Positions 5,787 to 19,869 of a stretch of DNA of 20,252 nucleotides are shown here, piece after piece (the first letter of the stretch is position 1; each line of letters starts with the position of its first letter). The notes under the pieces are model-generated. The model was not told where the DNA came from, ran no database searches, and saw only the letters and a program-made list of their open reading frames with translations. The translations under genes and the position numbers were made by a program. Source of the DNA: Candidatus Avipropionibacterium avicola (GTDB lineage: Bacteria > Actinomycetota > Actinomycetes > Propionibacteriales > Propionibacteriaceae); assembly GCA_018715445.1 (NCBI GenBank), contig DVLP01000454.1:1-20252 (forward strand). Reading direction: 5' to 3'.

Positions 5787-8189
5787 ATGTCAGCAAGCGC
5801 GAGAACGTGGTGGCGACGTGTCGTCGTGACCACGGTGACCAGCGCCGTACTCCTCGCAGCACAGGTCGGTGCGAGCCGGGCGGCACCACCGACGGACCAG
5901 GACGGTCCGTCAACCGGCACCCCGAACCACGCCACGATGCTCGGCGACTTCGCGGCCCCGGTATGGCTGCCGGACACCGGTGACGGGATCCGGCGCATCG
6001 ACATCCCGGCAACCCTGGACGCGCTCGAGGAAGCGCACGTCAACACCTACGCTTACATCCTCAGTGGTGGCGCCCAGTACGGCGATGCCGGACGCGGGAT
6101 CGTCACCGAGGCCCAGTGGAACGCGTTCCCCGCCTTTGCCGATGCTGCCGCCGAGCGCGGCATCGACGTGTACCTCTACATGTCCGGCCCGTCGGGCAGC
6201 GCCTTGGACACCTCGGTCCCGCGGCCCGAGCAGAAGCCCGGCAACAAGCCGTACGGCTGGGACTACCTCGCCTGGGCCGAGGAACTGGCCAAGGTCTCGG
6301 TCGACCATCCCAATGTAGGCGGGCTGATGCTCGACGACTTCAACGCCAACACCCCGCAGGAGAACAGCCCGTGGGCCTTCTCCTTCACCCCGGACTACGT
6401 CCGCGAGATGTCGGCGCTGGCACGCGCGCACAACCCCGACTTCCAGATCTACGGCGTGATCTACCAGCCGTCCCTCTCGACGGCCGCCGCCTTCCGTGAC
6501 GCCCTGGACGGTGTGATCTTCCCGTACCGCGGCGAGACCAGCACGCCCGGCACCGGCGACCCGTCGACGGCCCGGTCCGAGGGGGAGGTCTACGGAGACC
6601 TGAGCCACTGCTGGTCCGACCGATGCGTCCAGTTCCGAGGATCCGGCGACTCGGCGGACGGTGACCTCGCCGAGGTGAAGCGCACGGTGGCCGTCGATGC
6701 GGCCGCGCAGGAGCACGTGCTCACCATGCAGGTGAACAACGACAACTACCGCGAGCCCTGCGACGACGGACGCTGTTTCCTGTTCTCCATGCCGGGTCAC
6801 AGCCCGACCCAGGACGGCGACTACATCGCGATCAGCCAGGAGGTGGAGCTCTCCGGGGACGGTCCCCGCGAACTCTCCTTCCGGGTGGGCGATTCCACCC
6901 GACGCTCCACCTTCGGCTACCACATGTTGCAGGCGCTGGTGGACGGCGAAGTGGTGGCCGAGCGTGACGCGGCCGGCATGAACGACTGGGAGCAACTGAG
7001 CATCGACGTCAGCGAGCAGTTGGAGGGCAAGGACCATGCCACCCTCACCTTCCGGCTCCACAATCCCCAGGGCGTCGAGAACTTCGGGATCCGGACCTGG
7101 ATCGACGACATCGCCCTCACCGGGGCCGAGATCGCCGACCCGTCCTTCGACGACCGGACCAGTGGTGCCTGGCAGCAGTCCAACGTCGGCGAGGTGATGA
7201 AGGCCCAGTACACCGCCGGCACCTACACCTTGGAGACCGTGGTCGCCGGTGAGGTCGTCGCCGAACATCCGATCGAGGGCTACGACGGCTGGTCCAGCAT
7301 CACCCAGGACCTCACTGCAGCACTGGCCGGTCGCAGCACGGCGGAGGTGTCGGTCCGTCTGCGGGCCACCGATGACCTCGACGACGAGATCCGTACGGTG
7401 TGGATCGATGATGTCGAGATCAGCGGCACCGACGTGGCAGCCGAGGACTTCGACACCAGTTGGCAGGTCGACAGCGGCCCCACCATCGAGGCGCGCTCGG
7501 TGGCCAGTCACACCACCATCTGGATGACCTACGCCTCCCGTCTGGCCGCCGACGAGCCGGGCCACCAGCCGTCCGCCGACTACATCGAGGAGGTCCAGAG
7601 TGCTGGCATGTCGCTGATGGCCGAGGGACTGTTCGACGGTTCGCTGGTGTACGTCATGAACCTGTCCGACCCGGTCACCTCATCGGCTGGGGAGGAGCGT
7701 GCCCGGATCGGCCAGTTGTACGGCGACTGGGAGGCCAGTGACCGGTCCACCTGCGACGAGGTGGTCAGCGGCACCCACCGGGGCGGGGTCACCGTGACCC
7801 AGGGTCGGACCTGTCTGGTCGGAGCCGAGGTCAGTGGGCCGGTCGAGGTCGCCGAGGGTGCCGAGCTGTTGGTGGACTCGTCCACCCTGCGCGGCAAGCT
7901 CGCCGTCACCGGCGGAGCCGTGGCGGTCTGTGACTCCGAACTCGCGGGCTCGGTCGTGCTGACCGACGCCAGCGCCGTCCGGCTCGGGGCGACGCCGTAC
8001 CTGTGCGGTGGCAACACGATCCGTGGATCGGTGCAGATCACCGGGACGACGTCCGACTTCGCCGTCGCAGCGCTGCGGTTGCGCGGCTCGTTGGGCTGCG
8101 AGGGAAATGTCGCCGCACCGGACCAGCGAGGGGAGCCCAGCTCGATCTCCGGGTCGGCCAGCGGTGACTGTGCCGCCCTGGCGGCCTGA
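5787..8189 (+). CDS. Secreted TIM-barrel glycosidase-like protein with inserted beta-sandwich repeats and C-terminal beta-helix-like domain
   Basis: The 800-residue protein begins with a Sec signal peptide (basic WWRR, hydrophobic VVVTTVTSAVLLAAQ, cleavage near ASRA/AP). AGAGGA sits eight bases before the ATG. Residues about 48-260 look like a (beta/alpha) barrel, with NTYAYILSGG, GIDVYLYMSG and GGLMLDDFNAN (Asp183 and Asp184 are candidate catalytic acids) and IYGVIYQP. Two related beta-sandwich modules follow, ending in TWIDDIALTG (about 438-447) and VWIDDVEISG (about 538-547). After them comes TTIWMTYASRL...LVYVMNLSD (573-629), which looks like a final barrel strand and helix. The last 150 residues are a repetitive Gly/Val/Ser stretch with paired Cys (TCDEV, RTCLVGA, VCDSEL, YLCGGN), resembling the beta-helix-like tails of actinobacterial secreted proteins. 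It probably acts on extracellular polysaccharide. I cannot name a glycoside hydrolase family. Confidence 0.75.
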   Translation: MSASARTWWRRVVVTTVTSAVLLAAQVGASRAAPPTDQDGPSTGTPNHATMLGDFAAPVWLPDTGDGIRRIDIPATLDALEEAHVNTYAYILSGGAQYGDAGRGIVTEAQWNAFPAFADAAAERGIDVYLYMSGPSGSALDTSVPRPEQKPGNKPYGWDYLAWAEELAKVSVDHPNVGGLMLDDFNANTPQENSPWAFSFTPDYVREMSALARAHNPDFQIYGVIYQPSLSTAAAFRDALDGVIFPYRGETSTPGTGDPSTARSEGEVYGDLSHCWSDRCVQFRGSGDSADGDLAEVKRTVAVDAAAQEHVLTMQVNNDNYREPCDDGRCFLFSMPGHSPTQDGDYIAISQEVELSGDGPRELSFRVGDSTRRSTFGYHMLQALVDGEVVAERDAAGMNDWEQLSIDVSEQLEGKDHATLTFRLHNPQGVENFGIRTWIDDIALTGAEIADPSFDDRTSGAWQQSNVGEVMKAQYTAGTYTLETVVAGEVVAEHPIEGYDGWSSITQDLTAALAGRSTAEVSVRLRATDDLDDEIRTVWIDDVEISGTDVAAEDFDTSWQVDSGPTIEARSVASHTTIWMTYASRLAADEPGHQPSADYIEEVQSAGMSLMAEGLFDGSLVYVMNLSDPVTSSAGEERARIGQLYGDWEASDRSTCDEVVSGTHRGGVTVTQGRTCLVGAEVSGPVEVAEGAELLVDSSTLRGKLAVTGGAVAVCDSELAGSVVLTDASAVRLGATPYLCGGNTIRGSVQITGTTSDFAVAALRLRGSLGCEGNVAAPDQRGEPSSISGSASGDCAALAA

Positions 8190-8213: not shown

Positions 8214-9974
8214 TCAGCCGGAGTCGCCGTGCCAGGCCTGCCAGAGTCGAGCGTAGGCCTGGCCGGCGGCGACCAGATCGTCGTGGGTGCCCACCTCGAC
8301 GATCCTGCCGTCGGCCATCACGACGATCCGATCGGCATCGCGGGCAGTCTGCAGGCGATGCGCGATCGCGATCACCGTCCGACCCTGCAGCACCGCGGCG
8401 AGCGAGCGCTCGGTGTCGCGTGCGGTGCCGGGGTCGAGTTGGGCGGTCGCCTCGTCCAGGATCAGGGTGTGCGGGTCGGCCAGCACGACCCGGGCCAGGG
8501 AGAGCTGTTGGGCCATGGCGTCATCGAGGTGGACGTCACGTCCGGCCACCGCGTCCAGGCCGACGGGCAGGTCCGCGGCCCAGGTGGCCCCCACGGCCGA
8601 CAGTGCCGCCCACACCTGGTCGTCGTCGGCCGAGGGGCGTGCCAACAACAGGTTGTCGCGGAGGCTGTCGCTGAAGACGTGGTGCTCCTGGGTGACCAGG
8701 ACGACGTGGCCGCGCAACTGCTCCGGGGGCAGATCCGCGACCGCGGTGCCGTCGATGGTGACCGTGCCCGTCCTCGGGTGGTCCACGCCGGCCAACAATC
8801 GTGCCAGGGTTGACTTCCCAGCTCCCGAGCCACCCACGATCGCCAGGTGTTCACCCGGTCGGACGAGCAGGTCGACCCCGTGCAGGACATCGCGATCCGC
8901 CAGGTAGCCGTAACGGACGTCGTCCACCTGGAGGCGATCGCCGGCTGCCTCACGGACCGCATCGGGTACGCCAACCGCTGGTGGCTTCGGCGTCGTCGCA
9001 GGGATCCCCTCCACCCGGGCGTACGAAGCGCCACCGGCCTGGAGCTGCTCGATCCAGACCATCAGGGTGTCGAGCGGCCCGACCAACTGACGGAGGTAGA
9101 CCGTTGCCGCCACCACCGTGCCGAGACTGACCATGCCGTCGAGGTGGAGCAGGCCGCCGACCGCCAGGACGCCGACCACCGGCAGTCCCAGGGCGATGTC
9201 GGACCAGGGGAAGAGCACGGTCCGAAGCCACAGCGCGTCCAGCTGGGCGCGCCGGGCACGCCCGATGCTCGACTCCGCCGCTCGGGTCCGGCGCTGCTCC
9301 AACCCCAGGAGCTCCACGGTCCGGGCGCCCCGGACCGTGGTGGTGACGACATCAGCCAGCTCCGCCCCGGAGGCGGCGACCTCGAGGTAGGCGTCACGGG
9401 CCCGACGCAGATGACGACGGAGCGCGATCGCGACCCCGATGATGCCCAGCAGCCCGAAGGCGCCGAGGCGGGGATCCAGGACGACGACAGCGACGACCAG
9501 GAACAGGGCCTGGATTGCGGCGACCACGATCTCGGGGACCGCGGCGCGCAGGGTGGTGGCGACGACCGTGGCATCGGTGCTGCCCCGCGAGACGAGGTCG
9601 CCGGTGCCGACCCGTTCGACGCGCCGCGCCGGCAGCGCCAGGACCCGGTCCAGGAGTCGCTGCCGGATGCGGGCGCCCGCTCGTTCTCCGAATCGGTGCC
9701 CGACGAGCAGCGACCATCGGGTCAGCAGGATCTGTGCCACGGTGAAGGCCAGCGCGGCCAGGGCCAGCCGGTCGACCCGGTCCAGCACGTCGTCGGGCCC
9801 GGCCTGGATGGTGTCGATGATCCGACCCAGCAGCCACGGGGCCACCAACGCGACCGCCGAGGCGAGGACGTTGACCACGACCAGCGTCAGGACGGAGCGG
9901 CGGTCGGCGCGCAGCTCCCGTACGGCAGCAGTACGGACCTCGGCAGGACGGGCGATCGGTAGCGGCTCACTCAT
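8214..9974 (-). CDS. ABC exporter subunit (TMD-NBD) with intact Walker motifs and degenerate signature
   Basis: This is a 586-residue half-transporter. Six transmembrane helices occupy about the first 310 residues, followed by a nucleotide-binding domain. Walker A GGSGAGKST is at about 377-385, the Q-loop is VTQEHHVF, Walker B is LILDEATAQLD with the catalytic Glu, and the switch His is in AIAHRLQTA. The ABC signature is degenerate: where LSGGQ is expected, the sequence reads LDDAM (about 481). This is the expected partner of the preceding gene, whose signature is intact but whose Walker motifs are lost, so together they form one working ATP site. The start ATG overlaps the partner's stop by four bases. 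The substrate is unknown; exporters of this type carry drugs, lipids or peptides. Confidence 0.9.
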   Translation of the reverse strand: MSEPLPIARPAEVRTAAVRELRADRRSVLTLVVVNVLASAVALVAPWLLGRIIDTIQAGPDDVLDRVDRLALAALAFTVAQILLTRWSLLVGHRFGERAGARIRQRLLDRVLALPARRVERVGTGDLVSRGSTDATVVATTLRAAVPEIVVAAIQALFLVVAVVVLDPRLGAFGLLGIIGVAIALRRHLRRARDAYLEVAASGAELADVVTTTVRGARTVELLGLEQRRTRAAESSIGRARRAQLDALWLRTVLFPWSDIALGLPVVGVLAVGGLLHLDGMVSLGTVVAATVYLRQLVGPLDTLMVWIEQLQAGGASYARVEGIPATTPKPPAVGVPDAVREAAGDRLQVDDVRYGYLADRDVLHGVDLLVRPGEHLAIVGGSGAGKSTLARLLAGVDHPRTGTVTIDGTAVADLPPEQLRGHVVLVTQEHHVFSDSLRDNLLLARPSADDDQVWAALSAVGATWAADLPVGLDAVAGRDVHLDDAMAQQLSLARVVLADPHTLILDEATAQLDPGTARDTERSLAAVLQGRTVIAIAHRLQTARDADRIVVMADGRIVEVGTHDDLVAAGQAYARLWQAWHGDSG

Positions 9975-11743
9975 CCGGCATCCCCCTCGGCCCGGGAGAC
10001 CAGGTCGCGATAACGGGGGTCGGTGTGCAGCAGGTGCCGGTGGGTGCCGACCGCGGCGACCGCACCGTCGTGGACCAGGATCACCTCGTCGGCACGATCC
10101 AGCACGAGCGGCGAGCTGGTGGTGACCACGGTCGTACGGCCACGACGGGCTGCGTGGAGCCGCCCGATCATCATGGCCTCGGTGTGGACGTCGACCGCCG
10201 AGGTCGGATCGACGGCCAGCAGGACCTCCGGATCGGCCTGCACCGCTCGGGCCAGGCGGATGCGTTGACGCTGCCCACCGGACAGGTCGCGACCCTGGGG
10301 CGCGATCGTGGCGTCCAGACCGTCGGTGTCCGGCGGCCGGGGCAGCGCCTCGACGATGTCCTCGGCCACGGCGACGTGCAGGCTGGTACGGATCCGGTCG
10401 TCGTCCGGTTCGTCACGGCCGGCGACGATGTCCCTGACCGTCCCGGCGAAGATCGCCGCATCGTTGTCGGCGACGACCAGGCGCTGGCGCAGTCGGCTGC
10501 GGTCCGTCCCGCGGACCGGTCGGTCGGCCCAGGTGGCGCCGTCGGCCACCCCGCCGAGTCGGTCGACCAGAGCACGGGCGCGGTCCGCAGGCACCGCCAC
10601 CACAGCGGTGAGGATCCCCGGTCGTACCGACACCCCGGTGGGCCCGTCCACCAGCAGGCCGTCCGGCTTCGGGTCATCCTGCGTCGGGGTGCGAGGCCCT
10701 GGGGCACCGGGTGTTGGGGCATCGTCGGCGACCGGGAGGGCAAGCAGGTCGATGATCCGCCGACCCGCGACCTTGGCGCGGATCAGGTCACCGCCGGCTT
10801 CGATGAGGGCAGCAACCGGGACCACCAACATCGCGACATAGCCGTGGACGGCGACCACATCGCCGATCGAGATCGCACCGGTGGCCGCCATCCTGGCCGA
10901 CAGCCACACCACGGCCGCCAGGAAGAGGGCCGGCAGGCCGCCGGCCAGGGCGCCCACCCAACTGGTCGGTACGGCGACGCGGTAGCCCTGGTGGACCAAC
11001 TGCTGGGAGCGACGGACGTAGCGCTCGGCGACGACGTCCTTGCCGCCGAGTCCGTTCAGCACGCCGAGTCCGGCCAGGGCGTCGACCAGTCTGGCCGTCA
11101 GGTGCCCCTGGTGTTGTCGGTAGTCGTCCCCGGTGCGCTCGATCCGGCGCAGCAACGGGCCCACAGCGATCGCCAGGAGGGGCACCCCGGCCAGCACCAC
11201 GATCGCCAGCAGTGGGGAGATGGAGAACAACGCGACCGCGACCACGACCAGGGCCACCACGGCACCGACCCCCGGCCCCGTCACGGTCATGGCCCGAGCC
11301 ACCACCTGGACGTCGGTGATCCCGGCCGTCACCACCTCGCCGGTGGCGACCTGACGCGCCAGTCGGGCGCCCAGACGCGTGGTCTGCCAGATGATGGTCC
11401 GCACCGAGCGGTACGACGCGTCCATCCTGATCTTCGACATCGTGCGGTGTCGTGCGATCGACAGTGCCGCAATGAGCACCGTGGTGGCCAGCAGGACCAG
11501 GGTCCAGACCAGCAGTGCTCGACGGTCACCGGCCACGAGGCCGTCGACGGCCCGGGCCAGCACCCACGGCGGCACGGTCAGGGCGAGCGTCCACGCCGTA
11601 CCGAGGGTGGCGCCCAGGGCGACCCGGCCACCTTGGGAGCGGGCGAGCCAGACGAGGTAGTGGTACGGCGTCGTCAGGTCGGTCGGCGCAGGCGGGGCCC
11701 AGGAGTCCGACATCCGGTCCAGCCACTCCCGTCCGCGCGCCAT
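9971..11743 (-). CDS. ABC exporter subunit (TMD-NBD) with degenerate Walker motifs and intact LSGGQ
   Basis: This is a 590-residue half-transporter with an exporter-type six-helix domain and an NBD. The Walker A region reads AVVAVPADRARALVDRLGG (about residues 375-393), with no GxxGxGKS/T. Walker B reads VLLAVDPTSAVD, so by alignment from LSGGQ the Asp is Val and the catalytic Glu is Asp. The switch-His position reads VTTSSPL with no His. The signature LSGGQRQRIRLARA is perfect. It therefore lends its signature to the partner's catalytic site and cannot hydrolyse ATP itself. The ATG at 11743 lacks a good ribosome binding site. A second ATG at 11713 (MSDSWAPP) would give 580 residues. A short upstream ORF ends four bases before 11743 and may couple translation. 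Confidence 0.88.
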   Translation of the reverse strand: MARGREWLDRMSDSWAPPAPTDLTTPYHYLVWLARSQGGRVALGATLGTAWTLALTVPPWVLARAVDGLVAGDRRALLVWTLVLLATTVLIAALSIARHRTMSKIRMDASYRSVRTIIWQTTRLGARLARQVATGEVVTAGITDVQVVARAMTVTGPGVGAVVALVVVAVALFSISPLLAIVVLAGVPLLAIAVGPLLRRIERTGDDYRQHQGHLTARLVDALAGLGVLNGLGGKDVVAERYVRRSQQLVHQGYRVAVPTSWVGALAGGLPALFLAAVVWLSARMAATGAISIGDVVAVHGYVAMLVVPVAALIEAGGDLIRAKVAGRRIIDLLALPVADDAPTPGAPGPRTPTQDDPKPDGLLVDGPTGVSVRPGILTAVVAVPADRARALVDRLGGVADGATWADRPVRGTDRSRLRQRLVVADNDAAIFAGTVRDIVAGRDEPDDDRIRTSLHVAVAEDIVEALPRPPDTDGLDATIAPQGRDLSGGQRQRIRLARAVQADPEVLLAVDPTSAVDVHTEAMMIGRLHAARRGRTTVVTTSSPLVLDRADEVILVHDGAVAAVGTHRHLLHTDPRYRDLVSRAEGDAG

Positions 11744-13870: not shown

Positions 13871-15277
13871 TCAGGCGCTGACCAGCTCCCGGTCGTCCTC
13901 GGTGACCTCGTCCAGGGCGTCCTCGGAGTCCTCCAGGCGGGTGATGGCCCCGCCGAAGGTGTTGCCGTTGAAGCGCTCCAGGTTCAGCAGGCCGTTGCGC
14001 TTGGCGACGACCGTGGGGATGAGGGCCTGTCCTGCGACATTGGTGGCGGTGCGGATCATGTCCAGGATCGGATCGATCGCCAGCAGCAGGCCCACGCCCT
14101 CCAGCGGCAACCCGAGGGTGGCCAGGGTGAGGGTCAGCATCACGGTGGCGCCGGTCATCCCGGCGGTGGCTGCCGATCCCACGATCGAGACGAAGGCGAT
14201 CAGCAGGTAGTGGGTGATCGTCAGGTCGACACCGAAGAGCTGGGCGACCGTGATCGCTGCCAGGGCGGGATAGATCGCAGCGCAACCGTCCATCTTGGTG
14301 GTCGCACCGAACGGGACGGCGAAGCTGGCGTACTCCTTGGCCACCCCGAGGTTGTGGGTGGTGACCCGCTGGGTCAGCGGCAGGGTGCCGATGGAGCTGC
14401 GCGAGACGAAGCCGAACTGGATGGCCGGCCAGGACCCGGCGTAGAACTTCAGCGGGCTGAGGCCGTTGAGTCGGGCCACCAGCGGATAGATCACCAGCAG
14501 CACGATGGCGCAGCCGACGTAGACGTCAAGGGTGAAGATCCCCAACGGGGCCAGCAGGTCCCAGTCGTAGACCGCCACCGCGCGACCGATCAGCGCACCG
14601 GTGCCGATCGGGGAGAGCAGGATCACCCACCAGACCAGCTTGGAGAAGATCTCCAGGCCGCCCCGGGCGACGTTGACGAAGGGCTCGGCCTTCTTGCCGA
14701 CCGCCAGGGCGGCGGCGCCGATGGCGATGCCGATCACGATCAGCTGCAACACGTTGAACGAGAGGCTGCTGGTGACGCTGATCGCTTCCTCGGCCTGCTC
14801 CACCGAGCTCGACACCTGGAGGCCGAGGATGTTGCCCGGGACGACCGAGTTCAGGAAGTCCAGCCACGAACCCGTACGGCTCGGTGCGCTCCCGTCGGCC
14901 GGGTCGAGGTCGGCGTGGGCGCCCGGTTGGGTGATGACCCCCAGGGCGATGCCGACGATCACCGAGGCGGCAGCGGTGATGGCGAACCAGATGAGGGTCT
15001 GGGTGGCCAGCTTGGCCGCATTGGTGACCTGGCGCAGGTTGGCGATCGACACGATGATCGCGGTCAGCACCAGCGGGACGACCAGGATCTGCAACAGCTT
15101 CACGAAGGTGGAGCCGACCGTGGTCAAGGTGGTGGTCAGCCAGGTGATCTCGAAGTTGCGGGCGACCAGGCCCAGGATGATGCCGACGCCGAGACCGATG
15201 AAGATCTGGGCCCAGAACGGGATGCGGAACCGTCGAGGCGTCGGGGCCTCGGTCGCCGCGTCTGTGGAGGTGGACAT
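13871..15277 (-). CDS. DAACS-family amino acid/dicarboxylate:cation symporter, likely cystine-type
   Basis: The 468-residue protein has the sodium:dicarboxylate symporter fold. It starts near FWAQIFIGLGVGIILGL and includes the re-entrant-loop motif SRSSIGTLPLTQR, the GATTKMDGCAAIYPA stretch and the helix-8 motif DPILDMIRTATNVAGQ. The Arg, Thr and Asn of helix 8 that handle substrate and ions are kept, but the Asp usual in NVxGD is Gln. The GCA-x-YPA and non-Asp NVxG features resemble TcyP/YdjN cystine carriers more than GltP-type glutamate carriers (recalled comparison). AAGGAAA lies eight bases before the ATG. A Cys-rich leader ORF of known actinobacterial type lies upstream, which supports cystine or another sulfur amino acid as substrate. 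A strong terminator follows. Confidence 0.85.
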   Translation of the reverse strand: MSTSTDAATEAPTPRRFRIPFWAQIFIGLGVGIILGLVARNFEITWLTTTLTTVGSTFVKLLQILVVPLVLTAIIVSIANLRQVTNAAKLATQTLIWFAITAAASVIVGIALGVITQPGAHADLDPADGSAPSRTGSWLDFLNSVVPGNILGLQVSSSVEQAEEAISVTSSLSFNVLQLIVIGIAIGAAALAVGKKAEPFVNVARGGLEIFSKLVWWVILLSPIGTGALIGRAVAVYDWDLLAPLGIFTLDVYVGCAIVLLVIYPLVARLNGLSPLKFYAGSWPAIQFGFVSRSSIGTLPLTQRVTTHNLGVAKEYASFAVPFGATTKMDGCAAIYPALAAITVAQLFGVDLTITHYLLIAFVSIVGSAATAGMTGATVMLTLTLATLGLPLEGVGLLLAIDPILDMIRTATNVAGQALIPTVVAKRNGLLNLERFNGNTFGGAITRLEDSEDALDEVTEDDRELVSA

Positions 15278-15284
15278 GGAGTGG

Positions 15285-15422
15285 GTTTCCTTCGGGTGTG
15301 GGATGTCGCTGGACAGAGGAACTCCCGGGCAGGGCCGACCGACGTATCGACAGGACGTGGATCTGCAGCCGTCACGGCGTGCGGAGGGTCAGCTCGACGC
15401 ACCCGGGGTCAACAGGAGGTGA
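15285..15422 (-). promoter_or_regulatory. Leader RNA with anti-Shine-Dalgarno-like segment and possible SD-sequestering stem
   Basis: Four bases after the leader-peptide stop, the RNA carries UCACCUCCU (15422-15414), identical to the anti-SD tail of 16S rRNA. Nearer the symporter, GUUCCU (15322-15317) can pair with AGGAA(A)C (15291-15285), which is the symporter's own Shine-Dalgarno sequence. Such pairing would repress translation unless ribosomes stalled on the leader Cys codons disturb the fold. The pairing is proposed by eye, not by energy calculation. Confidence 0.45.
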
Positions 15423-15426
15423 GGGG

Positions 15427-15540
15427 TCAGCGACACAGGCAGGTGCTGACACGTACCAGATCGACGTGCAGACGCTGCCAGAACATGGGCAACCGCTGGG
15501 AACTCACATTCGCCCACAACCGGCGATCGCGGCAGGGCAT
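15427..15540 (-). CDS. Cysteine-rich leader peptide (uORF) upstream of the symporter
   Basis: This ORF has 37 residues from ATG 15540, which has GAGGG seven bases upstream; an in-frame ATG at 15486 would give 19 residues. The C-terminus reads HVDLVRVSTCLCR, then TGA. The HVDLxRVSxxLCR pattern is the hallmark of actinobacterial putative leader peptides found in front of cysteine, sulfate and related sulfur genes, where ribosome stalling at Cys codons controls the downstream gene. The two Cys codons (TGC, TGT) lie just before the stop. It precedes a cystine-type symporter by about 150 bases, the right context for cysteine-responsive attenuation. The motif match is from memory. Confidence 0.75.
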   Translation of the reverse strand: MPCRDRRLWANVSSQRLPMFWQRLHVDLVRVSTCLCR

Positions 15541-15562
15541 TCCCGTTCCCTCAAAGTTGGTG

Positions 15563-15578
15563 TGTGATCCTGGTCACG
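15563..15578. promoter_or_regulatory. CRP/GlxR-type site (9 of 10 fixed positions) upstream of the leader peptide
   Basis: TGTGATCCTGGTCACG fits TGTGA-N6-TCACA except for the last base. It overlaps the stop codon of the acyl-CoA oxidase-like gene and lies 23 bases upstream of the leader ORF start, where the symporter promoter should be. I could not identify a clear -10/-35 pair there. Confidence 0.4.
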
Positions 15579-17487
15579 CCGTCGCCAGCTCGTTGGTCAA
15601 CCACGGTGCCGGGATGGCGAAGGCCTCAACCAGCAGGGCGGCGTGGGGACGCAACTGTGCGCACAGGTCTGCGCGACGGCGTACGACATCCTTGGACTCG
15701 CCCGAGCTGATCCGACCGTGCTCGAGGTACCAGGCACGATGACGGTGCAACAGGTCGTGCACGAACAGGTCGCAGACCAGGTCGAGGACCTCGCGGGCGC
15801 CCGGTTCGCCCACCTCGTCGACCGCCTCCACCAGGGCCTCCAGGGCGATCCGCTCGACATGGGCCTCGGCCGTGGCGACCAGGTGGTCCTGGCAGCGGTT
15901 GAACACCTGGGCCGCGGCGACCGGGTCGTCCTTGGGCGCCGACCGCATCCGGGCCGCGAGGGTGTCGAGCAGGTGGCGCTCCCGGTCCTCGATCAGCACC
16001 AACTGCCCGCCGCGGTCGGCCAACGGGGACTCGGCCTCCCGGCTGCGGCCCCGGGCGATCAACCGTTGGACCAGGCCGGATCCTCCGACCCGCTCGATCA
16101 TCGCCCCGGTCACCTGGCGGGCGGCGAACCGCGCGATCCCGACCGGGTCGAGGTCGCTCACCTCGGTCTGGTAGCGGGTCAGCAAGGCCTTGCCGGCCAG
16201 CTGCAGCAGCACCGTGTTGTCCCCCTCGAAGGTGGTGAACACATCGGTGTCGGCCTTCAGCGCGGCGAACCGGTTGACCGCCATGTAGCCGGCACCGCCG
16301 CAGGCCTCACGGCAGATCTGCAGCGTGTCGGTGGTGTGGCGGGTCTGGACGGCCTTGAGTCCGGCCGCACGGGCCTCGAGCTCTCGCCGGTCGTGCTCGT
16401 CGTCCAGCTCGGGTGATTCCAGGCGGCGCCGTTCGATCCGATCAAGATCGCCGACGAGCTCGTTCTGCGCAGCGGCCAGGGCATAGCTGCGGGCGATCAG
16501 CGGCAGCAACTTGAGCTGGTGGGTCTGGTAGTCGAGCAGCAGCAGCTCGCCCTCGTCGCCGGCCAGCGGGTTCGGGAACTGACGTCGTCCCAGGGCGTGC
16601 TGGACGGCCAGGGTCAAGCCCGAACGAGCCGCGGCCGCTCCGGCGCCACCGACCGAGATCCGGCCCCGGACCAGGGTCCCCAGCATGGTGAAGAACCGAC
16701 GGTTGTGGCTGTCGATCGGAGAGGAGTACGTCCCGTCCTCGCCGATCGTGCCGTAGCGGTCGAGCAGGTTCGTGCGGGGGACCCGTACCGCATCGAAACG
16801 CAATTGGCCGTTGTCGACCCCGGGCAGGCCCATCTTGGCGCCGCAGTCCCCGATCCACACCCCGGGCAGGGCCTCGCCCTGTTCGTCACGGATCGGCACC
16901 AGGATGCAGTGCACCCCGTGGTTGGTGCCGTCGACCTCGAGTTGGGCGAAGACCGCGGCCATCCGACCGTCGCGGGCGGCATTGCCGATGTATTCCTTCT
17001 GGGCGCCGGGATGGGGCGTGGTGATGACGATCTCGTCGGTCGCCGGGTCGTAGGTGGCGGTTGTCTCCAAGGACTGCACATCGGAGCCGTGGTCGCTCTC
17101 GGTCATCGCAAAACAGCCCAGAAGTGAGCAGTCCAAGGCCTTCGGCAGGACGTCGCGACGGTGACGGTCGGTGCCAAGGTTGGCGATCACGCCGGCAAAC
17201 AGGCCGAACTGCACCCCGGACTTCACGAAGAGCGACAGATTCGCATGGCCCAACATCTCGGAGGCGATCACCAGCTTGGCCGGCTCACTCGGCTCCAGCA
17301 CGTTGTGGGTCGAGATCACCTCGGTGGCGCGCAACAGCCGCTCGGTGGTGTCGCGGCGGTGCTCCTCCAGCGAGTTCTCCGGGTCGAGTGGGATGAACAG
17401 GTCAGGATCCAGGTCCCGACGCAATGCCTGCCGCAGCTCCGCCCACGGGCCGTCGAGCACCTGTCTGATCACATCGACATCAGCCAT
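15574..17487 (-). CDS. Acyl-CoA oxidase/dehydrogenase-family flavoenzyme
   Basis: The protein has 637 residues from ATG 17487; the frame is open further upstream but enters the preceding gene. The sequence follows the acyl-CoA oxidase layout. It has the substrate/FAD segment CFAMTESDHGSDVQSLETTA, then YIGNAARDGRMAAVFAQL, HGVHCILVPIRDEQGEALPG, CGAKMGLPGVDNGQLRFD and RFFTMLGTLVRGRISVG. The helical C-terminal domain contains ICREACGGAGYMA, where the Glu is the expected catalytic base. FTTFEGDNTVLLQLAGKALL binds FAD and the partner subunit. It should introduce an alpha,beta double bond in an acyl-CoA, with either O2 or an electron-transfer flavoprotein as acceptor. It lies 29 bases after the alpha/alpha-toroid gene, so one operon is likely. 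The chain-length preference is unknown. No strong Shine-Dalgarno sequence is visible. Confidence 0.9.
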   Translation of the reverse strand: MADVDVIRQVLDGPWAELRQALRRDLDPDLFIPLDPENSLEEHRRDTTERLLRATEVISTHNVLEPSEPAKLVIASEMLGHANLSLFVKSGVQFGLFAGVIANLGTDRHRRDVLPKALDCSLLGCFAMTESDHGSDVQSLETTATYDPATDEIVITTPHPGAQKEYIGNAARDGRMAAVFAQLEVDGTNHGVHCILVPIRDEQGEALPGVWIGDCGAKMGLPGVDNGQLRFDAVRVPRTNLLDRYGTIGEDGTYSSPIDSHNRRFFTMLGTLVRGRISVGGAGAAAARSGLTLAVQHALGRRQFPNPLAGDEGELLLLDYQTHQLKLLPLIARSYALAAAQNELVGDLDRIERRRLESPELDDEHDRRELEARAAGLKAVQTRHTTDTLQICREACGGAGYMAVNRFAALKADTDVFTTFEGDNTVLLQLAGKALLTRYQTEVSDLDPVGIARFAARQVTGAMIERVGGSGLVQRLIARGRSREAESPLADRGGQLVLIEDRERHLLDTLAARMRSAPKDDPVAAAQVFNRCQDHLVATAEAHVERIALEALVEAVDEVGEPGAREVLDLVCDLFVHDLLHRHRAWYLEHGRISSGESKDVVRRRADLCAQLRPHAALLVEAFAIPAPWLTNELATA

Positions 17488-17516
17488 GCACCAACTCTGC
17501 CATGTCCCCGTCGTGG

Positions 17517-18713
17517 TCACGAGGGGTCGAGGTGTCCGGCCGCCACCGCCGCTCGCAGCCGCAGCAGTCCGGTGGCGATCGTCGCGGTGGTCCATCCGGT
17601 GTAGACCGACCACGCGCCGCCCTCGTCGATCGGGTTGGACTGGTTGGCCCGACCGCGCCAGGTCCGGCGGTCGACGTCGTACGAGCCACGCCAAGCACCG
17701 TGCCAGCCCACGTGCGGGTCGTCCACCTGGATCGACATCAGGAACTCGCCGAGGCGGTGGCCGGCCTCGAGGTGGCGCCGGTCGCCGGTCGCCCGCCAGG
17801 CATCGATCCAGGCGTGCAGTGCATAGCCGCAGGTGTAGACCAGATCGGTCAGGGAGGCGTCGTTCTGCTCGGAGGCGTCACGGCAGCTGTCGTCGCAGTT
17901 GCGGATCGCGCCGTCCTCGGTGCTCAACCGGTGCAGGAAGTCGGCGGCCCCGGCGATCTGCTCACCGAGGTCGACCCCGAGCAGGCGTTGCGCGAGGGAG
18001 AACGCACGCAGCGTCTCGGCCGTCTCCGACGAGGCCGGTCGCCAGTTCTCCCGGCCCTGGATCTCGTACGAGGTCTGCAGGCGTCCGTCGGGCAGCTGCA
18101 GCTCGACCAGTCGGTCGATCGAGCGCAACGCCGCCTGACGGGAGGCCTCGGCGCCGGCCGTCCCGAGCGCGGCATGACGGGCCAGTCCGATGGCGGGCCA
18201 GGCGACGAAGCAGGGTCCGAGGCGCGGACCCCAGTTCATCGGGAAGCCGCCCTGCTCGTCCTGGTTGTCGGCGAGGTGGTGGGCGAGGCGATCGGCACCG
18301 TCAGTCGCGTCCGGCCACAGCGACAGCATCTCCAGGACCTTGCCGTTGTCGTTGGGATAACGCGTCGCGCCGGTCTGGCCGAGGGTGGAGGGGCGGTCCG
18401 GCTCGGCCAGTTGGTAGAAGGGGAAGCTGCCGTCCTCGTTCTGGGCGGACAGCAGCCAAGTCCCCATGCCGTCGGCGACCGGGCCCAGCTCGGGGCGTTG
18501 CAGGGTGACCGCGGCGTCGGCGAACAGGGCCCGGGCCTCGGCGGTGCAATCCGGCCGGACCCAGTGGACGACTTCGTCGATGTCGATCCGGATCCGTTCC
18601 CAGATGCCGCGGGAGCCGTCGGGGGCCGGGAGCATGGTCTGCAGCCAGTCGATCGCTCGACCGACGCTGCGGTCGATGCGGTCGATGGTCGTCGTCGGGA
18701 CGGGATCACTCAT
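17517..18713 (-). CDS. Alpha/alpha-toroid protein of unknown function (cyclase- or six-hairpin-glycosidase-like)
   Basis: The protein has 398 residues with no signal peptide and no membrane segment. Repeated helix pairs with turn motifs NEDGSFPFYQL, DEQGGFPMNWGPRLGP, LPDGRLQTSYEIQGRENW and STEDGAIRNCDDSC resemble the QDGSW/F-like repeats of alpha/alpha toroids (prenyltransferases, terpene cyclases, six-hairpin glycosidases). Towards the C-terminus, VGWHGAWRGSYD and GGAWSVYTGWTTA are distinctive. The DxDD catalytic motif of squalene cyclases is not seen. GGGGG lies six bases before the ATG. Its only close partner is the acyl-CoA oxidase-like gene downstream, which gives little hint. I cannot assign an activity. 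Confidence 0.7.
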   Translation of the reverse strand: MSDPVPTTTIDRIDRSVGRAIDWLQTMLPAPDGSRGIWERIRIDIDEVVHWVRPDCTAEARALFADAAVTLQRPELGPVADGMGTWLLSAQNEDGSFPFYQLAEPDRPSTLGQTGATRYPNDNGKVLEMLSLWPDATDGADRLAHHLADNQDEQGGFPMNWGPRLGPCFVAWPAIGLARHAALGTAGAEASRQAALRSIDRLVELQLPDGRLQTSYEIQGRENWRPASSETAETLRAFSLAQRLLGVDLGEQIAGAADFLHRLSTEDGAIRNCDDSCRDASEQNDASLTDLVYTCGYALHAWIDAWRATGDRRHLEAGHRLGEFLMSIQVDDPHVGWHGAWRGSYDVDRRTWRGRANQSNPIDEGGAWSVYTGWTTATIATGLLRLRAAVAAGHLDPS

Positions 18714-18945: not shown

Positions 18946-19755
18946 TCAGGCCGGCGGCACCAGGCAGTAGGTCTTGGCCGGCTCGGCGAAGGACAGCGAC
19001 TCGTTGCTGTACTCACACTGCGACACGTCGTTGGCGTCCAGCACCTCGCCGACCTTGAAGGCCGCGCTCGGGTCGGTGCACTCGACGACCTTCAGCTCGT
19101 TGCTGCCGCCGGTGTCCTCGGCGTAGCAGGTGTCGGCCTTCAGCACGGCCATCATGCACAAGGTGCCGACGGTGCTCTCCGAGCCGCGGTTGCTGCGGGT
19201 GGTGGTGAGGGTGGTGTAGTTGCCCTCCGGGCAGCCGCTCGCGTTCTCGGCGGTGGCCACGATCTGGTAGTGGAAGTCCTCGGAGCCACAGTCGACGGTT
19301 TCGGTGTCGACCTCGTCGCCGGTGCCGGTCAGGACGGCACAGGTGCCGACCTGGTCCTCCATGCCCTTCTTGTCGAAGTAGCTGCGCCCGACGGTGAAGC
19401 CGAGGGCCAGGGCGACGACGACCACCAGGCTGATGACCGCGCTGAGGATGCGTCCGCCGACGCTCTTCAGGAAGCCACCGCCCTGCTGCGGCGCCTGCTG
19501 CGGCGCCTGGTTCTCGAACTGGATGCCACCGGGGCCGCCCACCTGGCCGCCGACCTGCGGCTGGCCCTGGGGGAACTGCTGGCCTCCACCCTGCGGGTAC
19601 TGCTGGCCCCCACCCTGGGGGTACTGCTGGCCACCGTCCTGCGGGAACTGCTGACCGCCACCCTGCGGGTACTGCTCGCCTCCCTGGGGATACTGGCCGC
19701 CGGGCTGCTCGGGGTTGTTGCCGCCCGGGAACGGCGACTGGGGAGGTTGGCTCAT
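18946..19755 (-). CDS. LppU/SCO3897-like Cys-rich membrane-anchored protein with Gln/Pro/Gly tail
   Basis: The protein has 269 residues from ATG 19755, which has AAGGA ten bases upstream; the frame is open further but with non-coding character. Residues about 1-95 are a cytoplasmic low-complexity tail rich in QYPQGG and QQFPQ units. One transmembrane helix follows (ILSAVISLVVVVALALGFTVG). The exported domain of about 135 residues holds eight Cys, in VGTCAV, VDCGS, SGCPEG, GTLCMM, DTCYA, VECTD, SQCEY and TYCLV, spaced for four disulfides. This matches the actinobacterial LppU/SCO3897 family, whose role is not established. It has its own promoter and terminator, so it is monocistronic, and it is divergent from a baeRF-like gene. 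Confidence 0.85.
   Translation of the reverse strand: MSQPPQSPFPGGNNPEQPGGQYPQGGEQYPQGGGQQFPQDGGQQYPQGGGQQYPQGGGQQFPQGQPQVGGQVGGPGGIQFENQAPQQAPQQGGGFLKSVGGRILSAVISLVVVVALALGFTVGRSYFDKKGMEDQVGTCAVLTGTGDEVDTETVDCGSEDFHYQIVATAENASGCPEGNYTTLTTTRSNRGSESTVGTLCMMAVLKADTCYAEDTGGSNELKVVECTDPSAAFKVGEVLDANDVSQCEYSNESLSFAEPAKTYCLVPPA
19537..19695 (-). repeat. In-frame 24-bp tandem repeats encoding GQQ(Y/F)PQGG
   Basis: About six imperfect copies of an eight-residue unit lie in the N-terminal tail of the LppU-like protein. The middle copies are near-identical at the DNA level (CTGCGGGTACTGCTGGCC-type units on the plus strand). This is a likely site of copy-number change by replication slippage. Confidence 0.75.
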
Positions 19756-19839
19756 GATCTGGGAATCCTTGGAGTTGTGACCTCGGTGTGCGAGGCAGAG
19801 ACGTGATGCGAGCATGCAAGGCTCACGGGGCCGGGCGCG

Positions 19840-19869
19840 ATCATACGCGAAGAAGGTGCACCCCGTCAC
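19840..19869 (-). promoter_or_regulatory. Promoter of the LppU-like gene
   Basis: On the minus strand, GTGACG (19869-19864) and TATGAT (19845-19840) are separated by 18 bases. The -10 box is close to consensus. The predicted start near 19833 leaves an untranslated leader of about 78 bases. Confidence 0.6.

Follow-up and report, generated by a model that had tools for sequence, protein, structure and literature searches.

A UGU codon at constant spacing from a conserved peptide core in putative cysteine-sensing leaders, including one before an SDF-family symporter gene

In putative leader peptides that precede sulfur-related genes and an SDF-family symporter gene of actinobacteria, one cysteine codon almost always stands nine residues past the Asp of a conserved VDL-type core and has the rare spelling UGU. 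This pairing of a single codon, in a single spelling, with a conserved peptide holds throughout the leader family as sampled here, and on these sequence comparisons it is both new and surprising. Neither the UGU rule nor an NF042934-type leader associated with a symporter was found reported in the open-licence literature searched. The leader from which the analysis started lies in a stretch of 20,252 nucleotides (the window, analysed over its whole length), on the minus strand, with an acyl-CoA oxidase-like gene on one side and the symporter gene on the other. The features of the locus are as follows.

13871 to 15277, minus strand: SDF (DAACS) family symporter, 468 amino acids, predicted cystine-type, PF00375, with the TM7 stretch GCAxxYPA
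15278 to 15426, minus strand: C-rich spacer, 149 bases with 63 C and 37 G, where Rho might load
15427 to 15507, minus strand: leader peptide ORF with probable GTG start, VSSQRLPMFWQRLHVDLVRVSTCLCR, 26 codons plus stop, matching NF042934
15433 to 15435, minus strand: second Cys codon, TGT, at Asp+9, proposed stall site; TGT in 117/117, 57/57 and 58/58 leaders of three sets
15439 to 15441, minus strand: first Cys codon, TGC, at Asp+7, common to genome G023; Cys here in some leaders only
15457 to 15468, minus strand: HVDL core codons; peptide core conserved, with pN/pS under 1 in frame in each of four groups
15462 to 15460, minus strand: Asp codon of the HVDL core
15518 to 15520, minus strand: -10 element GTT of a SigR/SigH-type promoter, 18 bases past the -35 box
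15539 to 15544, minus strand: -35 box GGGAAT of the SigR/SigH-type promoter (GGAAT-N18-GTT); G023 and others also have 18 bases between the two elements
15574 to 17694: acyl-CoA oxidase-like gene, upstream of the leader

The sequence-only reading of this DNA had described a short minus-strand ORF, ending in HVDLVRVSTCLCR-stop with two Cys codons, as an actinobacterial leader of the sulfur-gene type in front of a DAACS symporter. The ORF is present with both Cys codons (TGC at 15441-15439 and TGT at 15435-15433); as drawn in that reading, from 15540 to 15427, it translates to MPCRDRRLWANVSSQRLPMFWQRLHVDLVRVSTCLCR-stop. The family assignment also holds, the leader scoring 37.9 bits against the NCBIfam model NF042934 (cis_reg_atten, "putative leader peptide"; cutoff 27), with a match to residues 18-36 of the ORF as drawn that covers the whole 19-position model. 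The score against the Ms5788A polycysteine model, NF042933, is 19.4 bits, below its cutoff of 45. The gene behind the leader gives 317.9 bits against PF00375 (SDF; cutoff 27.9), as expected of a DAACS symporter. Apart from the window's leader and symporter, the draft genome, which is 91% complete, yielded no NF042934 match over the cutoff and no SDF protein. An Rfam scan of the window at gathering thresholds gave no matches. Elsewhere in the window, an overlapping pair of minus-strand ABC transporter genes (8214-9974 and 9971-11743), in which the membrane and ATPase parts are fused, probably encodes a heterodimeric exporter, and the product of the minus-strand gene at 18946-19869 has a domain of the LppU/SCO3897 family (61.7 bits, cutoff 25).

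Conservation of the leader was assessed upstream of symporter orthologs, which were found in 46 of the 147 genomes covered for the window's family and in 112 of the 394 covered for its class. The window's genome is present in both sets, and G000 was counted once; G077, without upstream DNA, was dropped from the 46, as were G236 (contig end) and G512 from the class set. A strict pattern, defined as [VIL]D-x8-Cys in one frame with a stop shortly after it, no more than 330 bases ahead of the symporter, was found for 117 of 154 orthologs across Actinomycetes (33/45 in the family, 84/109 elsewhere). It was found in 0/154 of the reverse complements and in a mean of 1.2 dinucleotide-shuffled regions (20 rounds). 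Judged by these controls, the leader ORF is more than a product of chance. The traits of an NF042934-type leader, a short ORF with a stop soon past the motif, placed before a gene and kept in relatives, are thus seen in 117/154 orthologs. The spacers between leader and symporter vary in length and sequence while the frame and the terminal Cys stay, which is the outcome expected by the sequence-only reading from an alignment of upstream regions. The strict pattern was devised after inspection of the family set and the class listing, and 60 NF042934 places fetched afterwards (the fresh loci) served as a test on new material.

Among the best 80 of 582 relatives of the symporter, 39 of the named loci carry the strict pattern, including those of Streptomyces, Nocardiopsis, Jiangella, Knoellia and Microlunatus, and none of the 15 alphaproteobacterial orthologs in these 80 does. 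These relatives partly overlap the other genomes and were not summed into the totals. The leaderless alphaproteobacterial orthologs are 56-59% identical to the symporter (L256, L258, L262, L264, L277, L279-L281, L283, L285, L295-L297, L305 and L307). This suggests, from sequence identity, a transfer of the symporter between phyla with loss or gain of leader control. Their gene neighbourhoods gave no clue to the substrate.

The promoter form GGAAT-N18-19-GTT, characteristic of SigR/SigH, occurs at 15543 in front of the leader with a spacer of 18. Only one other such site was found in the window, at 6896 on the minus strand, and the plus strand holds none. The SigR consensus is given as GGAAT-N18-GTT in PMC2375139 and as GGAAT-N18-19-GTT in PMC9205884, and a matching consensus is described for SigH in PMC10012870. 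Genes for a SigH_actino sigma factor and an RsrA anti-sigma factor lie adjacent in the genome (322.8 and 71.9 bits, both over their cutoffs). A strict box of this type stands upstream of symporter leaders in 43 of 116 cases (0.35 in shuffles, 0 in the reverse complement), of the fresh loci in 15 of 60 (1 in the reverse complement) and of other leaders in one of 50; the shuffles used for the box-versus-leader counts and for the group comparison preserve base composition only. The distribution is uneven, with no convincing box in 22 of 23 Streptomyces-type symporter leaders and none found in eleven Nocardiopsis-type symporter leaders. The strict box also precedes 7 of the 37 symporters that have no strict leader, where it lies near the start (G028, G019, G496, G284, G409 and two others). 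No sigma-70 promoter was found between 15200 and 15700. The word "symporter" does not occur in the main text of the SigR/SigH papers PMC9205884, PMC10012870 and PMC4340878.

The promoter bears on the choice of the leader's start codon. In 36 of 44 leaders with a box, 8-14 bases separate the GTT from the earliest ATG or GTG in frame (random offsets would place 27% of starts 6-14 bases past the GTT), so that these transcripts probably begin at or just before the leader. At the window's locus, GTG 15507 lies ten bases past the -10 GTT and aligns with the GTG of the same-genus genome G023, and by this comparison it is probably a better start than ATG 15540. The latter, chosen in the sequence-only reading, is probably wrong because it overlaps GGGAAT (15544-15539), the -35 box of a promoter that the reading had missed. 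ATG 15486 is a third choice.

We propose, and consider rather probable as a whole, a model in which a thiol-stress promoter drives a cysteine attenuator whose stall is set jointly by the nascent peptide and a wobble-read UGU. A SigR/SigH-type promoter between the acyl-CoA oxidase-like gene and the symporter would give a nearly leaderless transcript, with the cysteine-sensing leader peptide as its first ORF. The RxHVDL segment would lie in the exit tunnel as the UGU, nine residues past the Asp, enters the A site. UGU is generally decoded by a single tRNA-Cys (GCA) via G-U wobble only, so that a shortage of charged tRNA-Cys would hold the ribosome at this codon, just ahead of the stop codon. With plentiful cysteine, the ribosome would finish the leader, a C-rich and G-poor tract would be exposed, and Rho would terminate transcription. 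With cysteine in short supply, the stalled ribosome would block Rho termination and the cystine-type symporter would be made.

For the substrate of the symporter, the best guess, and a reasonably good one, is cystine or a related compound, because TM7 of the symporter is TcyP-like and because sulfur genes stand behind the same type of leader. This agrees with the sequence-only reading, which took a cysteine leader before a symporter as a sign that a sulfur amino acid is carried. A TM7 stretch GCAxxYP with one inserted residue is common to the symporter and E. coli TcyP, is absent from GltP, DctA and SstT, and was present in 25/25 orthologs aligned. The domains found in genes behind the same leader type are NIR_SIR (sulfite reductase), PAPS_reduct, Rhodanese, Sulf_transp, TauD, ThiS and PALP (cysteine synthase). 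All 15 fresh loci with a SigR-type box lead into CysO- or CysM-like ORFs, of which two were scanned, one giving ThiS and the other PALP/cysteine synthase. The symporter could instead carry an acidic amino acid, a dicarboxylate or a sulfonate such as cysteate, with the leader merely tying it to sulfur status. Several comparisons favour this second possibility, which we regard as credible but the less likely of the two. Identity of the symporter to the E. coli proteins is 30% for TcyP and 31% for GltP, and the alignment with GltP is slightly better (150 bits) than that with TcyP (140 bits). Its best PDB relative is an aspartate transporter, its relatives bear the source name dicarboxylate/amino acid:cation symporter, and a tree with the four E. 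coli paralogs, which has long branches and low support, does not join it to TcyP. Against it stand the TM7 stretch and the combination of leader and SigR-type promoter that the symporter shares with the cysO/cysM loci. The closest named relative, among the matches listed, belongs to Propionibacteriaceae.

The combination of SigR-type box and leader was observed at Streptomyces-type cysO/cysM-like loci L316, L324-L326, L328, L340, L346-L348, L351, L353, L354, L356, L360 and L363. Leaders were also observed before cysteine dioxygenase-like genes (L011-L015, L018, L021 and L027; Pfam CDO_I was checked for L011), which is an odd position for a starvation switch.

The region between leader and symporter has the composition expected of a Rho-type control region. 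Its C content exceeds its G content in 115/115 leaders (C 0.465, G 0.240; two with spacers shorter than 25 bases were excluded), and the C-over-G skew climbs from 0.04 to 0.25 directly past the leader. The skew is 0.228 in symporter loci with the leader (n=90) as compared to 0.090 in leaderless ones (n=31; p 5.6e-8), the latter being 31 of the 37 without the strict pattern, after exclusion of six with the core present or a mis-set start. Fresh leaders show a mean skew of 0.148, with values above zero in 93% of 58. No intrinsic terminator (a GC-rich hairpin followed by a T run) was found in the window between 15200 and 15700. The excess of C over G together with this result fits Rho-dependent control, which has been proposed for cysteine leaders of mycobacteria and Propionibacterium acnes in PMC1262725, where TnaC-type arrest is also named.

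The same leader and the same stall could act on translation, the stalled ribosome freeing the symporter's ribosome binding site (RBS) rather than blocking Rho. We think this unlikely, though it deserves weight, as the cysteine leaders of Mycobacterium smegmatis are described as translation attenuation in PMC13236596. The lack of an intrinsic terminator suits this alternative as well. In the case of the window alone, the leader brings the predicted accessibility of the RBS down to 0.38, from 0.69 in its absence and 0.60 when its part is shuffled, and this lower accessibility favours translational control there. The effect does not extend to the set of 115 leaders, for which masking of the RBS by the leader gave no signal (accessibility 0.433 versus 0.439 when shuffled; Wilcoxon p 0.97). 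The distance from the leader stop to the symporter start ranges from 21 to 290 bases (one mis-set start excluded), and no RNA structure common to the eight groups was seen between the leader and the symporter start, both of which also argue against it. Predicted hairpins differ from group to group, Nocardiopsis-type leaders having theirs across the core codons, and one group lacks them.

A still simpler scheme is that of plain attenuation on Cys codons, in which the peptide is inert, any Cys codon near the stop suffices and the core is kept by descent. This corresponds to the published view of mycobacterial polycysteine leaders, as given in PMC9031893, and many leaders do have more than one Cys codon. 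It is nevertheless improbable. In-frame pN/pS over 16 codons, computed on 100 of the 117 leaders, is 0.25, 0.62, 0.28 and 0.80 in four groups, compared to 0.93-4.78 for the two remaining frames. The weakest of the four in-frame values, 0.80, belongs to the family of the window. Within the Streptomyces-type group, the His codons and the Asp codons vary freely between synonyms (13:10 each). By this measure the leader peptide is under selection, being kept against synonymous change.

The distance from Asp to Cys is likewise kept at nine in leaders that have otherwise diverged. The strict pattern requires this distance, and the 117/154 count alone is therefore no test of the spacing. Collections assembled without the requirement (the NF042934 loci, the blind profile and the fresh loci) nevertheless have the Cys at Asp+9 in nearly all cases. 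Among 64 loci selected by NF042934 (a set that excludes L001 and L030), 57 have Cys at Asp+9; five of these, L006, L009, L025, L028 and L032, are symporter loci also counted among the 117. Of the other seven, two have Cys only from Asp+10 (TGC at +10 in L024, TGT at +10 in L033) and five were not parsed (L081, L083, L098, L102, L111). The fresh loci were parsed in 58 of 60 cases, leaving L334 and L345. A blind profile, built from residues D-6 to D+8 of the strict hits and thus holding no information on D+9, scored above the 99% level of its controls in 174 of the 234 regions.

The Asp+9 codon has a uniform spelling in the three sets counted, and its restriction to one site also speaks against the scheme in which any Cys codon suffices. 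The Cys at Asp+9 is TGT in 117/117 leaders of the strict set, in 57/57 of the NF042934-selected loci and in 58/58 fresh leaders. Other Cys sites are mostly TGC. At Asp+2 the 117 leaders have TGC in 64 cases and TGT in 3, the fresh leaders have TGC in 40/40, and the symporter coding sequences have TGC 107 times and TGT 4 times (counted on partial coding sequence, often about 150 bases per gene). Polycysteine leaders among the NF042934-selected loci have TGT at Asp+9 despite TGC one codon earlier. The blind profile finds TGT at this position 161 times, TGA seven times, TAG twice, and TGG, CCC, CAC and ATG once each; TGC was found in none of the 174 matches. Five of the 13 matches without TGT (nine stop codons and four other codons) are less sure because they score below the highest control, 16.1. 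The position accepts a slow wobble codon or, rarely, a stop, and never the fast synonym, and in this it resembles an obligatory pause site; from the codons found there, Asp+9 looks like the place of a required translational pause. Retention of the U for RNA structure or a protein site rather than for decoding is very unlikely, since no other base from -12 to +23 around the codon is invariant in the 117 leaders and the eight groups have no structure in common, even though a hairpin is predicted over the core codons of Nocardiopsis-type groups.

Among the Cys codons of the leaders, the last alone, that at Asp+9, is widely conserved; the Asp+7 Cys is found in some leaders only. The sequence-only reading had put weight on both Cys codons, of which the second is the widely conserved one. 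Its interpretation as a whole is borne out in part, with regard to the leader type and its conservation, and needs amendment as to the start codon and the weight placed on two Cys codons.

Several further observations concern the Asp+9 position. The base directly after UGU is G in 0/117 symporter leaders and in 1/58 fresh leaders. Stop codons (7 TGA and 2 TAG) stand exactly at the UGU site, with the core kept, in Modestobacter, Klenkia, Blastococcus and Kineococcus (L236, L237, L250, L259, L266, L270, L272, L275 and L290), and other Blastococcus leaders have TGT at Asp+9. The leaders of G087 (L038) and G119 (L042) have the core and a Cys at Asp+2 and no Cys at Asp+9; they are perhaps decaying or tuned differently.

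A broader generalization can be put forward tentatively, at slightly less than even confidence. The NF042934 and Ms5788A leaders may form one family of arrest-peptide cysteine sensors, in which the RxxVDL nascent chain positions the ribosome and the wobble-read UGU nine residues past the Asp is the stall codon. Earlier UGC codons would avert an early stop, and polycysteine runs would be accessory. The synonymous choice at this single site would be part of the sensor, possibly reading a sulfur-dependent modification of tRNA-Cys, although sensing of that modification is speculation. In one branch, a stop codon would replace the UGU and arrest would occur at termination.

These results turn the loose class of "cysteine-rich leaders" into a precise and testable rule of one codon, one spelling and one distance. 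If true, the rule provides a clean natural example of one tRNA serving two synonymous codons that are not equivalent for regulation, with the nascent peptide and the codon working together. The symporter, whose annotation goes no further than dicarboxylate/amino acid carrier, gains a likely sulfur substrate, and it joins the Streptomyces cysO/cysM loci in combining a thiol-stress promoter with a cysteine leader.

The locus can be compared with several known systems. Like other NF042934 leaders, the window's leader is a short ORF of a kind found directly before sulfur-metabolism genes; here the target is an SDF symporter with a SigR-type promoter, and the UGU rule lies outside the protein model. 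The symporter shares with E. coli TcyP (YdjN), a cystine/sulfocysteine:cation symporter, the SDF family and the TM7 stretch GCAxxYPA with one inserted residue, but at 30% identity it is no closer to TcyP than to GltP. With the SigR/SigH thiol-stress regulon it has GGAAT-N18-GTT in common, and its membership is predicted from the promoter match. In TnaC-type arrest, tryptophan is sensed at the stop codon, with Rho. The proposed likeness lies in a stall beside the stop, a conserved nascent peptide and a C-rich tract past the leader; for the window's leader we infer the part of Rho. The Ms5788A polycysteine leaders of mycobacteria (NF042933; Canestrari 2020, as relayed in PMC9031893, PMC9094748 and PMC13236596) have a similar VDL core, Cys codons near the stop and a near-leaderless start, whereas the window's leader has no Cys run. 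The uORFC-8-2 attenuator of cysS in Rhodobacterales, as described in PMC8632094, likewise has conserved Cys codons in a leader ORF that precedes a cysteine gene. There, UGC is dominant, the two Cys codons stand in tandem and the attenuator has an intrinsic terminator, in contrast to the UGU at a single site, with no terminator found, in the window.
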